Positions 11,101 through 22,833 of a stretch of DNA of 48,415 bases are shown piece by piece; the stretch's first letter is position 1, and each line of letters begins with the position of its first letter. The notes beneath the pieces are model-generated. The model was given only the letters and a program-made list of their open reading frames with translations. It was not told where the DNA came from and ran no database searches. This stretch comes from Lachnospiraceae bacterium. Lineage in GTDB: Bacteria > Bacillota > Clostridia > Lachnospirales > Lachnospiraceae. A program made the position numbers and the translations under genes. The DNA is taken from positions 1 to 48,415 of the forward strand of contig JAGBCB010000028.1 of assembly GCA_017938145.1 (NCBI GenBank). Reading direction: 5' to 3'.

Positions 11101-11130
11101 GGCAGATAGTGAAAAAATAGAGTGAAATAT

Positions 11131-11261
11131 GTCACATGTAACAATTTGATTGCAAAATATATAAAAATATGTTATTAATAACAATATAGTAAGCGTTGAT
11201 TGAAAATATGTCACGAATAACAATTTGATGCATATTTTCAAGAAAATATGTTATACTTAAC
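11131..11261 (+). promoter_or_regulatory. Tandemly duplicated promoter with four phased operators
   Basis: Four copies of the near-palindrome GTYAYnnnTAAC (or close variants) start at 11131, 11171, 11210 and 11250, that is 40, 39 and 40 bp apart. Copies 1 and 3 are followed by AATTTGAT(T)GCA, and copies 2 and 4 are preceded by AAAATAT, so the array is a 79-bp promoter unit repeated twice. Each unit has a -35 (TTGATT 11146-11151; TTGATG 11225-11230), a 16-nt spacer and a -10 (TATGTT 11168-11173; 11247-11252). Operators 2 and 4 overlap the -10 boxes, and operators 1 and 3 sit just upstream of the -35 boxes. The XRE regulator starting at 11281 is the likely repressor. Confidence 0.75.
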
Positions 11262-11280
11262 ATAAAAGGAGGCTGTTGTT

Positions 11281-11610
11281 ATGAATAACGAAGGTATGAA
11301 CTCTATATTTGAACAAATAAATAATTTAAAAAAGCCCGATTCTGACTCAAAGGAAAAAACTATAGATACTTCAAAAGATACTTTACGAGAAGTGCTGAAT
11401 GGAGTATCAGAGGAAATTCAAAGAGTGTTGGATGCGAATAATTTTACGCAGGAAGATTTGTGCCGGATTACTAGCATGTCTCAATCTAATATCAGTAAAA
11501 TCCAAAACGGAAAAGTTGTACCTAGAATAGAAACCTTACACAAGATTGCAACGGCTACGCACACAAGATTAGTAATAAGTTTTGAGAGCATGGAAGGAGA
11601 TGATCAATAA
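11281..11610 (+). CDS. XRE-family helix-turn-helix regulator of the defence operon
   Basis: A 109-residue protein with a polar N-terminus and an XRE-type HTH at about residues 49-93. The pattern is F-T-Q-E-D-L-C-R-I-T-S-M-S-Q-S-N-I-S-K-I-Q-N-G-K, then L-H-K-I-A-T-A. It is followed by an L-V-I-S-F strand typical of antitoxin-type XRE proteins. AAAGGAGG precedes the start. Its stop overlaps the ATPase start by one base (TAATG), so it is translationally coupled to the effector genes. The four-operator array directly upstream suggests autorepression. It could be a plain repressor or an antitoxin-like partner of the ATPase-nuclease pair. Confidence 0.85.
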   Translation: MNNEGMNSIFEQINNLKKPDSDSKEKTIDTSKDTLREVLNGVSEEIQRVLDANNFTQEDLCRITSMSQSNISKIQNGKVVPRIETLHKIATATHTRLVISFESMEGDDQ

Positions 11611-12722
11611 TGGCATTTATTAAATCAATCGAAATAAATCAATTTAGAGGAATTCAGAGATTAGCGATTTCTGATTTTTCTAATATTAATCTTATAGTAG
11701 GCGATAATAATAGTGGTAAAACGACATTCTTAGAAGCAATACAGTTGTTGTTCGCTAAATCTCAACTGAGCTCCATTAAGAATGTAATTAATCAAAGGAC
11801 TTTGCTCAATCCAGGTAATAACTTTTATACTTCTTTCATCAAAATGTTTAATATGGAACAGGATAAAGAGAATTTGGAGTTTGACATTTATGCGAACACT
11901 TATACTGGACCGCTTGAGTTCGAACTGAGAGGACAGGAAAAAATAATTGCCGGTGAGGATGCTCTTCAGGTATCAAAAAAATCAGTTCGTAACAGAACAC
12001 CGTATAGAACGGCTGGTTTTACTCCTGAAACAGTAAGAGAATTTGTAGGAACTATTATCACTCAAAACGAAAAGAAAACGATGGAAAAAGAGATACGTTT
12101 TACTTCGTTGGATAATGTATTTTCGGGTGTGGTCTCAAAAAAGGAAGTTCATTATATTCCATCTTTTGGACACTTGCGCTATGACTTGTTACAAAACATT
12201 GTAGAAAATCAGGAATATAAGAAGCTTGCAATTGATATTTTAAGGCAATTTGATGAGTCCATTAAGGATATTTGTTATATAAAAGCAGATGATGAATCAT
12301 ATTTTGAAGCCATTATTACGGAGCGTGGTGTGGTTATGCCATTTTCTGTTTATGGAGATGGTATAAAGAAAATACTATATATTCTTAATAAGATGTTTGA
12401 TGCTACAGATTCCATATTGTTGATTGATGAAATAGAAACGGGACTGCACAAAAAATACTATGAAACATTGTTCCCGGTAGTATTTGCTTTGGCAAACAAA
12501 TTGAATGTTCAATTATTCATTGCAACCCATAGTATTGAAGCGATTGATGCAATATTGAAATACGGGAATTATGAAAATAGTAATAGAAATACTGACCCAA
12601 TAAAGGTCATTACATTGAAGAAAGTGAATGAAAATACCGGAAGTAATATAGTTGCCCGAAATGTTACCGGCAAATATGTATACGAAAACAGAAAAGTATT
12701 TGAATTTGAGGTGCGCCTATGA
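11610..12722 (+). CDS. OLD/AAA_21-type ATPase of a putative defence system
   Basis: A 370-residue SMC/ABC-like ATPase. It begins with I-x-x-F-R-G-I-x-x-L, has Walker A G-D-N-N-S-G-K-T (31-38), Walker B L-L-I-D-E-I-E-T-G-L (D273, E274) and the switch motif A-T-H-S near residue 306. This is the ATPase half of OLD-family nucleases and of AriA-type sensors. Unlike classical OLD or GajA, no TOPRIM domain follows in the same chain; it is encoded by the next gene, overlapping by ATGA. The separate ATPase and TOPRIM genes resemble PARIS (AriA/AriB), but assignment to a named system needs a profile search. The coding sequence is AT-rich compared with the ICE backbone. Confidence 0.85.
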   Translation: MAFIKSIEINQFRGIQRLAISDFSNINLIVGDNNSGKTTFLEAIQLLFAKSQLSSIKNVINQRTLLNPGNNFYTSFIKMFNMEQDKENLEFDIYANTYTGPLEFELRGQEKIIAGEDALQVSKKSVRNRTPYRTAGFTPETVREFVGTIITQNEKKTMEKEIRFTSLDNVFSGVVSKKEVHYIPSFGHLRYDLLQNIVENQEYKKLAIDILRQFDESIKDICYIKADDESYFEAIITERGVVMPFSVYGDGIKKILYILNKMFDATDSILLIDEIETGLHKKYYETLFPVVFALANKLNVQLFIATHSIEAIDAILKYGNYENSNRNTDPIKVITLKKVNENTGSNIVARNVTGKYVYENRKVFEFEVRL

Positions 12723-13459
12723 TGACTGAGTTAGTACTTGTTGAAGGCGTATCAGATGTACAGCTGATAAGCTATTATCTACAAAATGTACATGATTGGA
12801 AGCATGAAAGAAATAATGTACTTGGGATTACTGAACTTGATGAACATGAGCACATAGAGAGTCTTTCTAAAAATGGAAATCAACTTATTTTATGTGGGGT
12901 AGGCGGCAATGGAAAATTCGCGCACTTTGTTGAACAGCATCGTGTAAATGATATGTTGATTGAGAAAGATATATCATCCCTAATTGTTGTTACAGACAGG
13001 GATGAAGCCTCGGATGCAAATGTCAGAAGAGTAATCAATAATTCACTTGAAAAAATATCCGTTGAGGTGGGGCGGTGGAAGAATAATGAGGTTGAGGATT
13101 CATTCGGGCAGGTGAAGAATATCTATACATACCTTTTAATTATTCCGCCAAATGAAAGAGGTGCATTGGAGAGAGTAATTATTGATGCATTGAAGGATAT
13201 TCCGGAAGAAACGGAGTTGATTCAAGAAGTGATTCAGTTTATTGATTCCTTAAAAGGAGGATTGGTTCCTGATTTGAATCAAGTTAATAAAGCGAACAAA
13301 GCAACGGTAGGAACTTTTTTCAGTGTCCGCAATCCTAAAAATGCGATGAGGTCTTTTGGTATTTTTATTTCGAATATTGACTGGTCAAAATCTGCATCAT
13401 TACAGCAGGTATTTTTACCATTCACGTATTTGGGAGAAGTAAAACCAATAGAAAAATAA
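12719..13459 (+). CDS. Stand-alone TOPRIM / DUF3226-like nuclease-type protein
   Basis: A 246-residue protein with the TOPRIM signature: V-E-G-V-S-D (Glu9), a glycine-rich G-V-G-G-N-G-K-F near 60-67, and V-V-T-D-R-D-E (Asp93, Asp95). The later P-P-N-E-R-G-A-L-E-R motif matches the Pro...G-x-L-E feature of DUF3226 proteins. The Glu and two Asp would coordinate metal for nucleic-acid cleavage. The gene overlaps the ATPase by 4 bp, so the two products are probably made in a fixed ratio and act as a complex. In PARIS-type systems the AriB TOPRIM effector is released when a phage trigger is sensed; whether that holds here is inference. Confidence 0.75.
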   Translation: MMTELVLVEGVSDVQLISYYLQNVHDWKHERNNVLGITELDEHEHIESLSKNGNQLILCGVGGNGKFAHFVEQHRVNDMLIEKDISSLIVVTDRDEASDANVRRVINNSLEKISVEVGRWKNNEVEDSFGQVKNIYTYLLIIPPNERGALERVIIDALKDIPEETELIQEVIQFIDSLKGGLVPDLNQVNKANKATVGTFFSVRNPKNAMRSFGIFISNIDWSKSASLQQVFLPFTYLGEVKPIEK

Positions 13460-13525
13460 AGAAATCTTTCATTATAAATATATGGGATTACAAGAATAGG
13501 TTTCGGAAATGGGAGGAAATGTACA

Positions 13526-14893
13526 ATGTCTTGTATTTATTGTGGAACTAAAATAGATTTAGCCGACTCAGACATTATTCCAGATGCACTTACTAATGCG
13601 AAAATTATCAATCCTCATGTCTGTAGAGTGGCTCATAATAATAGATTTAGTGACATGTTCGAAAACGAAATTATTAATGACATGGCATTAATTACCAATG
13701 AACTAGATATTAAGTCAAGTAAAGGAAAGAAATATGCAGTATATGATGCAAAGGTGGTTGTTGGAGGTACGGAATATAAGACAAAACTATCTTCCGATAC
13801 CGAGCTTTTCAAGGGCAGTAAATTTATGGTTACAGAAGATGGAAAAACTAAGCTTGGACCGCTTGAACAAGTAATGAAGATTAAAAATGCTACTGAAGAA
13901 AATGTTCAGGTAGTTGATGTTAATCATATAGAGATAGAAAAAAGAGTTATTATAAAAACGGAAACATATTTTTCATTGGCAATGTATAGGTTGATGACAA
14001 AAATTGCATTTGAATGGTATTGCCTTCATAACGGAATTGAAGATAAAAATGATAAATTTGAGGATATAATTAATTTTATTGTTAAAGGAGAGGGTAACAA
14101 TCCCGTGACAATAGTGGGGAATGAAACGGTATACGGTTTGTTTGATCAGTATACCAATTTTGCAAATCACACGTTGTTATGTTATATAGCATCCGATAAT
14201 TCTGTTAATATACTTATTAGTTTATTTGGCATAGCTATTTATAATGTGCGCATTTTGAATGAAGTGATAGAAGAGTGTAGCTGCAATGCTCTTTTTCAAA
14301 CGTTAACAATTGATGCAAAAAGAGAGCAGTTCTATTTTAAGAATAAAGAAGAGTTAAATGATAATTTAATAAACTCTTTTTATAATATGGATTTTGGGAA
14401 TGGTATGACAGTGCTGATGCCAAAAGACATGACAGATATGTCCTTACAATATCAAATGCTATACCTACAAAATTATGATTTGTTTGCAACAAATTTGATG
14501 TGTGTGGATAAACCAGATTCGGTAATTGTTCATATGATAATAAAACATATCGAAAAGCTTCTACAAGAATCTGCGCTTACTATAAGAGGCCTAAAGAGGT
14601 TTGTGAATGAGCATAAAGAGTATTTAGAGCGGGAAAATGCATTGAATCCTAATGGTACAAATAAGCAGAGTATTTTTATGTTTTTTATTCTTTATACTAT
14701 AGGAAATTCAAATGGGAAAATTAGTAGTATGAAAGAACTGATTTCATATTTAAAGCAAAGGTTTTCAGGGACAGAAATATCAATAAGCGACGATATGAGT
14801 AAAAATCTATATACTGAAATATTTAAGGACAAAGATTACTTTGAGAAGATAAAAATGGGAGCTTTGGTAGTAGATAAATGGGAATTTGAATAA
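13526..14893 (+). CDS. Zinc-ribbon/HNH-like protein, third gene of the defence operon
   Basis: A 455-residue protein. The N-terminus reads C-I-Y-C-G (3-7), S-D-I-I-P-D-A-L-T-N (15-24), V-C-R-x-x-H-N-N (32-39), F-S-D-M-F-E. This is the layout of HNH_5-type domains (CxxC ... H-I-I-P-x-A-L ... C-x-x-H-N), except that the first catalytic His is Asp16, so nuclease activity is doubtful and zinc binding more likely. The remaining ~400 residues are mixed helix/strand with no family I recognise. It follows the TOPRIM gene by 66 bp with its own GGGAGG site. Its AT-rich composition matches the two genes before it. It could be a substrate-recognition or sensor component, or an unrelated passenger. Confidence 0.6.
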   Translation: MSCIYCGTKIDLADSDIIPDALTNAKIINPHVCRVAHNNRFSDMFENEIINDMALITNELDIKSSKGKKYAVYDAKVVVGGTEYKTKLSSDTELFKGSKFMVTEDGKTKLGPLEQVMKIKNATEENVQVVDVNHIEIEKRVIIKTETYFSLAMYRLMTKIAFEWYCLHNGIEDKNDKFEDIINFIVKGEGNNPVTIVGNETVYGLFDQYTNFANHTLLCYIASDNSVNILISLFGIAIYNVRILNEVIEECSCNALFQTLTIDAKREQFYFKNKEELNDNLINSFYNMDFGNGMTVLMPKDMTDMSLQYQMLYLQNYDLFATNLMCVDKPDSVIVHMIIKHIEKLLQESALTIRGLKRFVNEHKEYLERENALNPNGTNKQSIFMFFILYTIGNSNGKISSMKELISYLKQRFSGTEISISDDMSKNLYTEIFKDKDYFEKIKMGALVVDKWEFE

Positions 14894-15020
14894 AAATTTA
14901 GTACCATATCTTAGTAAGGTAAGGTCTGATGCTTTTTCGATAAGAAATCATTTTTGTTATTGAGAGCCTAAAATAGCCATCCGCAGCAGCCTGCTTCAGT
15001 AAAGCCAGCATATAAATTGG
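14894..15020. other. Gene-free spacer after the defence operon
   Basis: This is the first part of the 506-bp stretch 14894-15399 without a credible gene. I see no coding pattern, no clear terminator directly after the stop at 14893 and no strong promoter. GGTAAGGTC and short AT-rich runs are the only visible words. The rest of the stretch holds the structured element, a terminator and promoter motif C, listed separately. Confidence 0.5.
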
Positions 15021-15156
15021 GCAAGCGCAACGTTCCGGATAAAACCTACACATAGGAACCTGCGGGAAAACAGGGAGCGCTTAGACCGTGTGCGGAGTTC
15101 TGGCGGAGCACTGGGGTCTGCTCCCGGCTTCTTTTTCCGCAGGTTCCGTTGCTTGC
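15021..15156 (+). ncRNA. Putative structured RNA with four nested stems
   Basis: Nested pairing covers 136 nt. P1 is GCAAgcGCAAC (15021-15031) with GTTGCTTGC (15148-15156). P2 is GGAACCTGCGG (15055-15065) with CCGCAGGTTCC (15137-15147), a perfect 11 bp stacked directly on P1 at the 3' side. P3 is GGGAGC (15073-15078) with GCTCCC (15120-15125). P4 is AGACC (15083-15087) with GGTCT (15115-15119). It is clearly more GC-rich than its AT-rich flanks. A rho-independent terminator follows at 15252. It does not match a riboswitch, ribozyme or tmRNA that I can recall. It could instead be a DNA-level structure such as a transfer origin or a mobile-element end. Confidence 0.6.
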
Positions 15157-15251
15157 GAACATATTTCCCAAAAAGAAAAAAATGAAAGCCCGAATCAGAG
15201 TAGTGGGTGGATGTAAGAAATATTTTCAAAAAACGTATATTAATGCGAAGA

Positions 15252-15291
15252 AGAGAATTGCCAATGCAAAGAAGGTGGTTCTCTTTTTTTT
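15252..15291 (+). terminator. Rho-independent terminator
   Basis: AGAGAATTGCC pairs with GGTGGTTCTCT (11 positions, three G-U) around an 11-nt loop, followed by eight T. It lies about 95 nt past the structured element and before promoter motif C, so it would end the defence-operon transcript or a separate RNA and insulate the transfer operon. Confidence 0.8.
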
Positions 15292-15353
15292 GTTGCTCAA
15301 AATATGGAGGGTAACGATTCCTTTGAAAAAGAGCAATAAATATAGGAAGTATT

Positions 15354-15391
15354 CCCCTCTATATATCTTATGTAAAACAAAGAAAGAGAGG
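15354..15391 (+). promoter_or_regulatory. Shared ICE promoter/leader motif, copy C (transfer operon)
   Basis: CCCCTCTATATAT (15354-15366) precedes the transfer operon by 34 bp. It is preceded by GCAATAAA (15333-15340), as in copy A. CCTCT can pair with the AGAGG of the ribosome site (15387-15391), as in copy B. Confidence 0.5.
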
Positions 15392-15399
15392 TATTTTCT

Positions 15400-15930
15400 A
15401 TGGAATTTAAAGGAATTGCAAGTAATGAAGTGCAAACCGAAAAGGATGTTTTAGTGGCTTCTTGCGGGATTAACGAAGAAAATCCGGAGGAACCAAAGGC
15501 ACAGATTCTGGTGGAAACTAAAAAGCTGGACTTATCCAGTGGTGAGGAAGAAGTCATTGAACGTATTGATTTGTACGGACCGATTGTGAACTGCTTCCGA
15601 AACCTTCAGCATATGATGTTGGATATTCAGTTTGACAGTGCTTCCGATCCGGATTTCATCCGGGTAGTCAGAGTATTAAAAGAATTTTGTGTGCCAGAGA
15701 ACAGTCTGGATGAAGAAAGTGATAGTCTTTCGATTGTTGTAGTTACCATCATGCCGGTTTCCTTAGAGGGAGAGTACTTTGCTGCAGGTGTTAATGGAAG
15801 CTGGGTAGTAATGCCATCACAGGCGAACCGTCTACCGGATACCATTCGTTTTATCTTCAATAACATCGATTTCCATACGTACCGGATTAACGAAAGCGAG
15901 TTGGAGTTACCGGATGAAACGGAAGAGTAA
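15400..15930 (+). CDS. Conserved-looking hypothetical protein of the transfer operon
   Basis: A 176-residue acidic, soluble protein with no signal peptide, membrane segment or recognised motif. It has alternating hydrophobic strands (I-V-V-V-T-I-M-P, W-V-V-M-P), suggesting a compact alpha/beta domain with a disordered acidic tail. AGAGAGG precedes the ATG by 8 nt. It is the first gene behind promoter motif C and sits 17 bp before the VirB4-like ATPase, so it is probably a small accessory component of the mating apparatus. Function unknown. Confidence 0.6.
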   Translation: MEFKGIASNEVQTEKDVLVASCGINEENPEEPKAQILVETKKLDLSSGEEEVIERIDLYGPIVNCFRNLQHMMLDIQFDSASDPDFIRVVRVLKEFCVPENSLDEESDSLSIVVVTIMPVSLEGEYFAAGVNGSWVVMPSQANRLPDTIRFIFNNIDFHTYRINESELELPDETEE

Positions 15931-21576: not shown

Positions 21577-22833
21577 ATGACTATTAAGAAAGATAAAAAG
21601 AATAGAAACTTGATGCAGAATGAAGACCAAAGAGCAGATGGGAGGTATAGATACCGGTATACAGATAAATATGGTAAAAGACGAGATATATACGCATGGA
21701 AATTAGTTCCTACGGATAAGACACCAGCTGGTAAGAAAGAAGATTTAAGCTTAAGAGAAAAGATTCGGGAAATCGAAAGAGACACTATGGATGGTATTGA
21801 TACCTATACATCCCATTCTTCGGTGAATGAATTGATTGAAGCATACTTAAAACTGAAAATCCAGTTGGCAGTAACGACAAAGGAAAATTATCATCATATG
21901 TGGGAGAAAAACATCAAAGACAGTTTTATCGGAAAAGCGCGAGTGTGTGATGTAAAGAAATCTGATATCCAGAGATTTTATGCATATTTGAAAGAGGAAA
22001 GAAACTTTACAACGAATACCATTCAGTTGTATCAGAATTTACTTTTCCCTGCATTTCAGATGGCCGTTGATGATAGTGTAATCCGATTAAATCCGTGTAG
22101 AAATTGCATGAAGGATTACGCAAGGGGGTCAATGTCTTCTACGAAACTTCCGTTATCCAGAGTTGAGCAGGAGAAGCTTTTAAAGTTTGTAAAAGAGGAT
22201 TATATTTATAAGCCATCTTATCCATTGATTGCATTTCTTCTTGGAACCGGATGCAGAATTAGTGAAGCTCTTGGAATGACATGGGATGATATAAACTTTG
22301 AGGAACGGTATGTGAGTGTCAATCATCAGGTGATTTACAAGAAAAAGGATGGTGCAGTGGTTTATTTTGCGGCTCCAACAAAAACGAAAAAGGAGCGAAA
22401 GGTACCGATTCAGAAGGACTTGCTTGAAATCTTGAGGAAGCTTAGGGATGATACTTATTTCATTAGCAAAGCATCAGGGTTTGAAGTAGATGGATATAGC
22501 AATTTCGTATTCATCAACAATGCAGGAAAGCTGAAAACCCAGCATACGATTGTACGTACTTTTCATGGAATCCGGGATGCATATAATAAAGAAGAAACGG
22601 CTAAGGCTTATGAAGAATCAAGAGAGCCGGTACTTCTTCCGGATTTTACCCCACACACTTTACGACATACTTTCTGTACCCGCATGGCAGAGAATGGGGT
22701 AGATGTGAAAGTGTTACAGGAAATTATGGGACATGCTAATATATCAGTTACTATGCAAGTGTACAATCATGCTGATTTTGCCAGAACTCAAAAGGCTGTG
22801 GAAAGTTTACCAGACGTATTAACAGCAATATAA
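21577..22833 (+). CDS. int: Tyrosine recombinase / ICE integrase (Tn916 type)
   Basis: A 418-residue site-specific recombinase. The first ~70 residues resemble the Tn916 Int arm-binding domain (R-Y-R-Y-R-Y-T-D-x-x-G-K-R). A core-binding SAM-like domain follows at about 80-180, then the catalytic domain with Arg227 (G-C-R-I-S-E-A-L), a Lys-rich beta hairpin (T-K-T-K-K-E-R-K-V-P-I), H360-x-x-R363 (H-T-L-R-H-T-F), the G-H-A-N histidine and the nucleophile Tyr396 (M-Q-V-Y-N-H). All catalytic residues are present and the length is typical, so it is probably active. GGAGGGTTACAT precedes the start. It integrates and excises the ICE with Xis. Confidence 0.93.
   Translation: MTIKKDKKNRNLMQNEDQRADGRYRYRYTDKYGKRRDIYAWKLVPTDKTPAGKKEDLSLREKIREIERDTMDGIDTYTSHSSVNELIEAYLKLKIQLAVTTKENYHHMWEKNIKDSFIGKARVCDVKKSDIQRFYAYLKEERNFTTNTIQLYQNLLFPAFQMAVDDSVIRLNPCRNCMKDYARGSMSSTKLPLSRVEQEKLLKFVKEDYIYKPSYPLIAFLLGTGCRISEALGMTWDDINFEERYVSVNHQVIYKKKDGAVVYFAAPTKTKKERKVPIQKDLLEILRKLRDDTYFISKASGFEVDGYSNFVFINNAGKLKTQHTIVRTFHGIRDAYNKEETAKAYEESREPVLLPDFTPHTLRHTFCTRMAENGVDVKVLQEIMGHANISVTMQVYNHADFARTQKAVESLPDVLTAI

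Follow-up and report, generated by a model that had tools for sequence, protein, structure and literature searches.

An XRE-regulated variant of the candidate PDC-M38 ATPase-TOPRIM pair, predicted to act in phage defense, is carried as cargo of an integrative element

The 48,415-nt stretch of DNA analyzed here (JAGBCB010000028.1, positions 1 to 48,415 of the forward strand; hereafter the window, to which all coordinates refer unless a locus is named) contains a short operon encoding an XRE-family regulator, an AAA/ABC-type ATPase, and a stand-alone TOPRIM protein. From its sequence, the operon is probably a self-regulated anti-phage module, the defensive role being predicted. A preliminary description had taken these three genes, together with a fourth downstream, for a new cassette of a PARIS-like or split-OLD type. 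The split ATPase and TOPRIM with their own regulator hold up well, but the cassette is not new, as its second and third genes are already catalogued in PADLOC as PDC-M38A and PDC-M38B, and the fourth gene looks like an unrelated passenger. In the ORF (open reading frame) list of the window, the genes for XRE, ATPase, TOPRIM, and gene 4 all lie on the + strand, the first three being:

11281..11610, + strand: XRE-family regulator, 109 amino acids (aa), with a helix-turn-helix (HTH) at residues 46-95 and an N-terminal extension; probable autorepressor
11610..12722, + strand: AAA/ABC-type ATPase, PDC-M38A, 370 aa, with intact Walker A, Walker B, and His switch; probable sensor/neutralizer
12719..13459, + strand: stand-alone TOPRIM, DUF3226/PDC-M38B, 246 aa, with Glu9, Asp93, and Asp95; probable nuclease and toxic effector

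The three genes are joined by the overlaps originally described, TAATG between XRE and ATPase at 11608-11612 and ATGA between ATPase and TOPRIM at 12719-12722, whereas gene 4 lies outside them, separated by 66 bp from the TOPRIM stop. Pfam assigns HTH to the XRE protein (8.7e-9), AAA_15/AAA_21 to the ATPase (2e-21), and DUF3226 to the TOPRIM protein (1.1e-16). Among the PADLOC profiles, the best for the ATPase is PDC-M38A (E 3.7e-123, 409.9 bits) and the best for the TOPRIM protein is PDC-M38B (E 2e-133, 441.6 bits), both over nearly the full length. The ATPase also matches, more weakly and in descending order, the AbiLi (3.9e-42), AriA (5.2e-24), GajA (1.3e-18), and Old (4.2e-14) profiles, while neither AriB nor AbiLii is among the 7 PADLOC families, all inspected, that match the TOPRIM protein at E <= 1. 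The catalytic features previously reported are all present: the ATPase has a Walker A GDNNSGKT from residue 31, LLIDE at 270, and the ATHS switch at 305, and in the TOPRIM protein Glu9, Asp93, and Asp95 are invariant in 24 aligned sequences (window included), placing a Glu and an Asp-x-Asp on a TOPRIM fold. The second-best fold match of the predicted TOPRIM model is the C-terminus of a Xanthomonas OLD protein; AriB is not among the fold matches listed, which says nothing against kinship. Against the sequences of solved structures, the best TOPRIM matches were at chance level (E 0.36 for the single sequence and 0.21 for the profile), and none was found in plasmids, phages, or two viral-contig scans. 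It should be noted that individual copies of the pair depart from this pattern. In one (L039 5889-7004, the same locus as L023), the catalytic Walker B Glu is replaced by Gly (LLIDG) beside an intact TOPRIM, as either a natural variant or a sequencing error, and in another (L056 7001-7740) the TOPRIM gene is split into two ORFs and appears inactivated.

A profile scan of genome contigs returned 27 loci, and XRE lies directly 5' of the ATPase in all 26 that are informative; the remaining locus (L055) starts inside TOPRIM. In four cases (L040, L045, L050, and L051), XRE was at first masked by longer antisense ORFs and was recovered by tblastn. Because several of the loci are closely related (L046-L049; L059 and L064), the independent cases are fewer than these counts. 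Among 15 further genomes, the source genome excluded, XRE is upstream in six (five of them also among the 27 loci), while in eight (L022 and L027-L033) three XRE queries matched nothing near the ATPase-TOPRIM pair, a search that an unrelated HTH gene would have escaped. The last (L034) has a TOPRIM fragment only, with a weak XRE-like match ~4 kb away that was not counted. Thus, XRE is a real third part in one subfamily only and was not found beside eight more distant pairs, which argues that it was added as a regulator in one lineage and is probably not the neutralizer. Its N-terminal extension is kept within clade A, and none of the 14 PADLOC families matched by the XRE protein is a PDC-M38 model.

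XRE is preceded by four 14-bp dyads spaced 39-40 bp apart, with no strand assigned:

11130..11143: putative operator O4 (distal), TGTCACATGTAACA, at -151 from the XRE start codon
11170..11183: putative operator O3, a perfect dyad, TGTTATTAATAACA, at -111
11209..11222: putative operator O2, TGTCACGAATAACA, at -72
11249..11262: putative operator O1 (proximal), TGTTATACTTAACA, at -32

The operators are conserved. In the window and 18 other loci, the pattern TG[TC][TC]AN4T[AG][AG]CA occurs at 55 sites within the 200-bp segments preceding XRE (3.8 kb in all), versus nine sites in the remaining 269 kb (four of these nine in the window), an enrichment of ~430-fold. This count includes the near-copies L046-L049, and for six loci (L045-L049 and L051) the XRE start used lies ~15 bp inside the gene. 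As the pattern derives from the window and related loci, the same-sequence contrast serves as a test rather than an independent discovery. At least two sites are present in 18 of the 19 loci, with a single site in L057, and 40 bp is the most frequent spacing (16 of 36 intervals). Within the 3.24-Mb source genome, the 16-bp TATGTYAYNNNTRACA has five matches, four of which are the sites upstream of XRE, and the reversed pattern used as a control has four; with one mismatch allowed, TGTYAYNNRTRACA has 11 matches in the window versus 1.84 expected. The portion of O1 at 11249-11257, TGTTATACT, can be read as an extended -10 element, and TGNTATANT was found by eye at the proximal site in 15 of 19 clade-A loci. 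Since the proximal dyad contains this extended -10-like sequence, XRE most likely autorepresses the operon. Upstream of XRE in five of eight clade-B loci (L058, L060, L061, L063, and L065) there are AT-rich dyads of the AATATATA type, noted with no chance control, hinting that the operator may switch along with XRE.

We favor, with confidence slightly above even, the reading that this operon is a self-regulated, toxin-antitoxin-like abortive-infection module of PARIS-/AbiL-like logic, in which a TOPRIM nuclease is neutralized by an AAA protein. XRE would bind the four dyads that precede its gene and so hold operon expression low; the dyad closest to XRE covers the probable extended -10. By analogy with PARIS, AbiL, and the AAA/TOPRIM_OLD pairs, the ATPase would keep the TOPRIM nuclease inactive and serve as the sensor. 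Infection would then release or activate the complex, and TOPRIM, through its Glu and Asp-x-Asp metal site, would arrest growth by cutting a nucleic acid that the cell requires, RNA (for example, tRNA) being the likeliest. In the accessible portions of the papers cited here, AAA proteins neutralize paired TOPRIM_OLD toxins in E. coli (PMC10440598), AriB cuts tRNA (PMC12409363), and the AbiLii of F. nucleatum is toxic (PMC3985639). A more speculative version, to which we give little credence, would make XRE itself the trigger, drawing upon the operator array and the N-terminal extension: a phage event stripping XRE from the four sites would induce the operon and at the same time shift the ATPase:TOPRIM ratio so as to free the nuclease. 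If true, the operon would represent a split-OLD system gated at transcription, and no such system was found described for PARIS, AbiL, or Gabija in the literature searched.

Several observations weigh against the abortive-infection module. A promoter scan yielded no excess of sigma-70 sites (23 versus 21.7 expected) and none at O1, and the eight clade-B loci lack the clade-A dyad upstream of XRE. Neither toxicity nor neutralization by the ATPase is universal among relatives, as the L. lactis AbiLii showed no toxicity in E. coli, and the F. nucleatum AbiLi failed to neutralize AbiLii (PMC3985639). For the AAA pairs, the accessible part of the source reports no phage protection, and the one pair screened (A. 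guerrae) was negative (PMC10440598); for the XRE-ATPase-TOPRIM subfamily, no defense or toxicity test was found in the literature searched. The substrate cannot simply be carried over from relatives either, since the TOPRIM protein matches neither the AriB nor the AbiLii profile. Lastly, 6 of 10 hand-picked neighbor proteins, from four of six loci, matched PADLOC at 1e-5, the match at L065 being weak and that at L054 possibly an ordinary UvrD-type helicase. Because these neighbors were picked by eye, they are an illustration and not a rate; they include JetB/JetC at L047 and, at L054, the UvrD-type helicase with GajB-like profiles. Also near an XRE-PDC-M38 operon, with two PADLOC-negative genes between, is a HEC-01A/B pair (L058 8075-12119), itself a candidate with an AAA ATPase.

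The same proteins could be arranged differently. The ATPase and TOPRIM might assemble like Gabija GajA or a class 1/2 OLD protein into a complex that nicks or degrades phage DNA, with XRE as the repressor; the GajA and Old profile matches of the ATPase and the OLD-like fold match of the TOPRIM model are what speak for this unlikely alternative. An addiction module, that is, a toxin-antitoxin device retaining the mobile element with phage defense absent or secondary, is a still more doubtful proposition. Tight autoregulation is typical of toxin-antitoxin operons, and the operon is cargo of an element with a Tn916-type integrase, but its homologues sit, according to their ORF lists, among many different flanking genes with no common element, and the operon does not occur in the 18 kb read of a related element in this genome. 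It is also quite improbable that XRE is an antitoxin that binds and neutralizes TOPRIM in classical type II fashion. A small HTH protein from the first gene of an operon that is probably toxic, with an extension conserved within clade A, would suit that role, but neutralization in the eight pairs with no XRE match beside them needs another partner, and for other AAA/TOPRIM_OLD pairs neutralization by the AAA protein is reported in the accessible text (PMC10440598).

The last alternative, a four-component system in which the following gene acts as an HNH effector or accessory, concerns this feature:

13526..14893, + strand: gene 4, 455 aa, whose N-terminus reads CxxC ... SDII ... CxxxHN; resembles HNH_5 at most and is taken as a passenger

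Gene 4 is adjacent to the operon and on the same strand in this one window, and is equally AT-rich. By tblastn against all loci examined, however, it turned up only in pieces of the window itself and in loci retrieved with gene 4 as the query. The 37 other loci with TOPRIM (27 plus 15 minus the 5 shared) all lack it, four of them having <600 bp of contig past TOPRIM and the others being covered as far as the flanks fetched. Conversely, PDC-M38A was found at 1e-30 in none of four genomes with gene 4 relatives, a search whose control was positive in 1 of 14 genomes, and the short virus record with a gene 4 relative has no ATPase match, which shows little. A four-part system is scarcely credible on these counts and was rejected given the absence of gene 4 from all 37 loci; a failure of the homologues to co-occur, named in the preliminary description as a refutation, is seen for gene 4 but not for XRE, ATPase, and TOPRIM. 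Beyond the source genome, its relatives occur in 3 of 390 genomes of the class (one partial), in 1 of 396 of the family, and on one virus-collection contig. Three of these five are preceded by one to three large serine recombinase genes, identified by reading the sequence, suggesting that gene 4 relatives are cargo of serine-recombinase elements. These loci are:

L082 2692-9156: serine recombinase genes directly followed by the gene 4 relative
L038 176-2458: serine recombinase genes directly followed by the gene 4 relative
L066 2-6365: serine recombinase genes and the gene 4 relative, with four small ORFs between

The CxxC/HN residues described earlier, with Asp in place of the first catalytic His, are present, but the protein is not degenerate in this respect: C3, C6, D16, C33, H37, and N38 are invariant in four full-length sequences (window included), the N-terminal pattern across relatives being CxxC ... 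SDII ... Cx2-3HN, so that the Asp is a family trait rather than decay. Searches of Pfam, PADLOC (E <= 1), NCBIfam, and PHROGs returned nothing for gene 4 at the thresholds applied, and those of solved-structure sequences (single or profile), plasmids, and genome contigs gave nothing credible. In phages there is one short partial match (42 aa at 64%), one relative (L036) has a weak HNH_5 match of 17.7 bits, below the cut-off of 27.5, and a structure prediction from two sequences was unusable (pLDDT 32.5). Gene 4 looks like separate cargo beside the operon.

Operon and gene 4 share one cargo region:

11101..15247, no strand: maximal extent of the cargo; its two flanking backbone genes adjoin each other in a related element of this genome

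As had been described, the cargo is AT-rich, the GC content being 0.31-0.36 across its four genes versus 0.41-0.43 in three neighboring backbone genes. It had been placed between two backbone operons of an integrative and conjugative element (ICE), of which the integrative part stands: a Tn916-type integrase gene is confirmed at 21577-22833. Conjugation genes are unconfirmed, because the large backbone ORFs have no Pfam match at 0.01 except for an HD domain and a weak InlB-like repeat, and the ICE label rests on the integrase and the gene row. A related row, with homologues of ORFs 8513, 9579, 10078, 15400, 15948, and 18234 in unchanged order, is present on a second contig of this genome. There, the 345-aa and 176-aa genes found to either side of the cargo in the window are directly adjacent (L069 9187-10224 and 8656-9186). 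The cargo thus lies inside one backbone gene row, not between two operons. The XRE-ATPase-TOPRIM operon is not in that related element within the 18 kb read; the simplest reading is that AT-rich cargo was inserted into the row, although it may instead have been lost from the other element. A backbone relic on a third contig aligns with the window from 15248 on (79% up to 15398; 83% over 265 bp), which sets the right cargo limit at or before 15247. That contig holds a short relic of the 176-aa gene of the element and its leader (L078 7289-7549). Evidence for a target-site duplication is unconvincing, the longest exact direct match between the cargo edge regions being 10 bp, and a hotspot survey using the 340-aa backbone gene found only the source genome, with two copies (1 of 397 genomes). 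An imperfect 33-nt inverted repeat (73%) lies at 15055-15147 in the non-coding stretch right of gene 4; Rfam gave three weak matches over 14880-15420, far below gathering scores and taken as chance. At the left edge of the window there is a group II intron match (57-136, 45.9 bits).

Split ATPase-TOPRIM pairs are a candidate defense class with few members tested, and a dedicated repressor gene with a specific operator array offers a direct handle upon expression, toxicity, and triggering, one by one. The window also illustrates how a four-gene block can mislead, one of its genes apparently being a passenger of other mobile origin.

Searches of the open-access literature returned no paper naming PDC-M38 or on DUF3226, none on AriA and AriB with an XRE regulator, and none on a TOPRIM, AAA ATPase, and XRE-family operon in phage defense. 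PDC systems are unpublished candidates, according to the accessible text of PMC11811056. Both PDC-M38 genes are present here, adjacent and overlapping, each with its best profile in that system, which places the pair in the candidate PDC-M38; the XRE gene and the operator array are additions of the subfamily only. AbiL, described as putatively bicistronic in the portion available (PMC3985639), likewise splits ATPase and TOPRIM, and the ATPase matches AbiLi, although this is not its best match and no AbiLii-type TOPRIM is present. PARIS has the same separate architecture, and to that extent the earlier PARIS-like label is apt, but AbiLi outscores AriA and the TOPRIM here is a DUF3226 protein rather than AriB. 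In class 1/2 OLD and Gabija the ATPase and TOPRIM are fused, whereas here they are two overlapping ORFs. Gabija also differs in its adjacent UvrD-like GajB: gene 4 lacks any PADLOC match at E <= 1, and a Pfam scan of the flanking ORFs 10078 and 15400 was negative at 0.01. The NetFlax AAA (D29)-TOPRIM_OLD pairs, compared by description, are alike in combining an AAA neutralizer with a TOPRIM toxin in two genes, but the accessible part of that source (PMC10440598) mentions neither an XRE nor an operator array. RptR is likewise a dedicated repressor of defense genes, but controls restriction-modification systems, not an ATPase-TOPRIM operon, in the text available (PMC12255303). From these comparisons, the XRE-ATPase-TOPRIM operon is an XRE-regulated variant of a known candidate pair and not a categorically new system.

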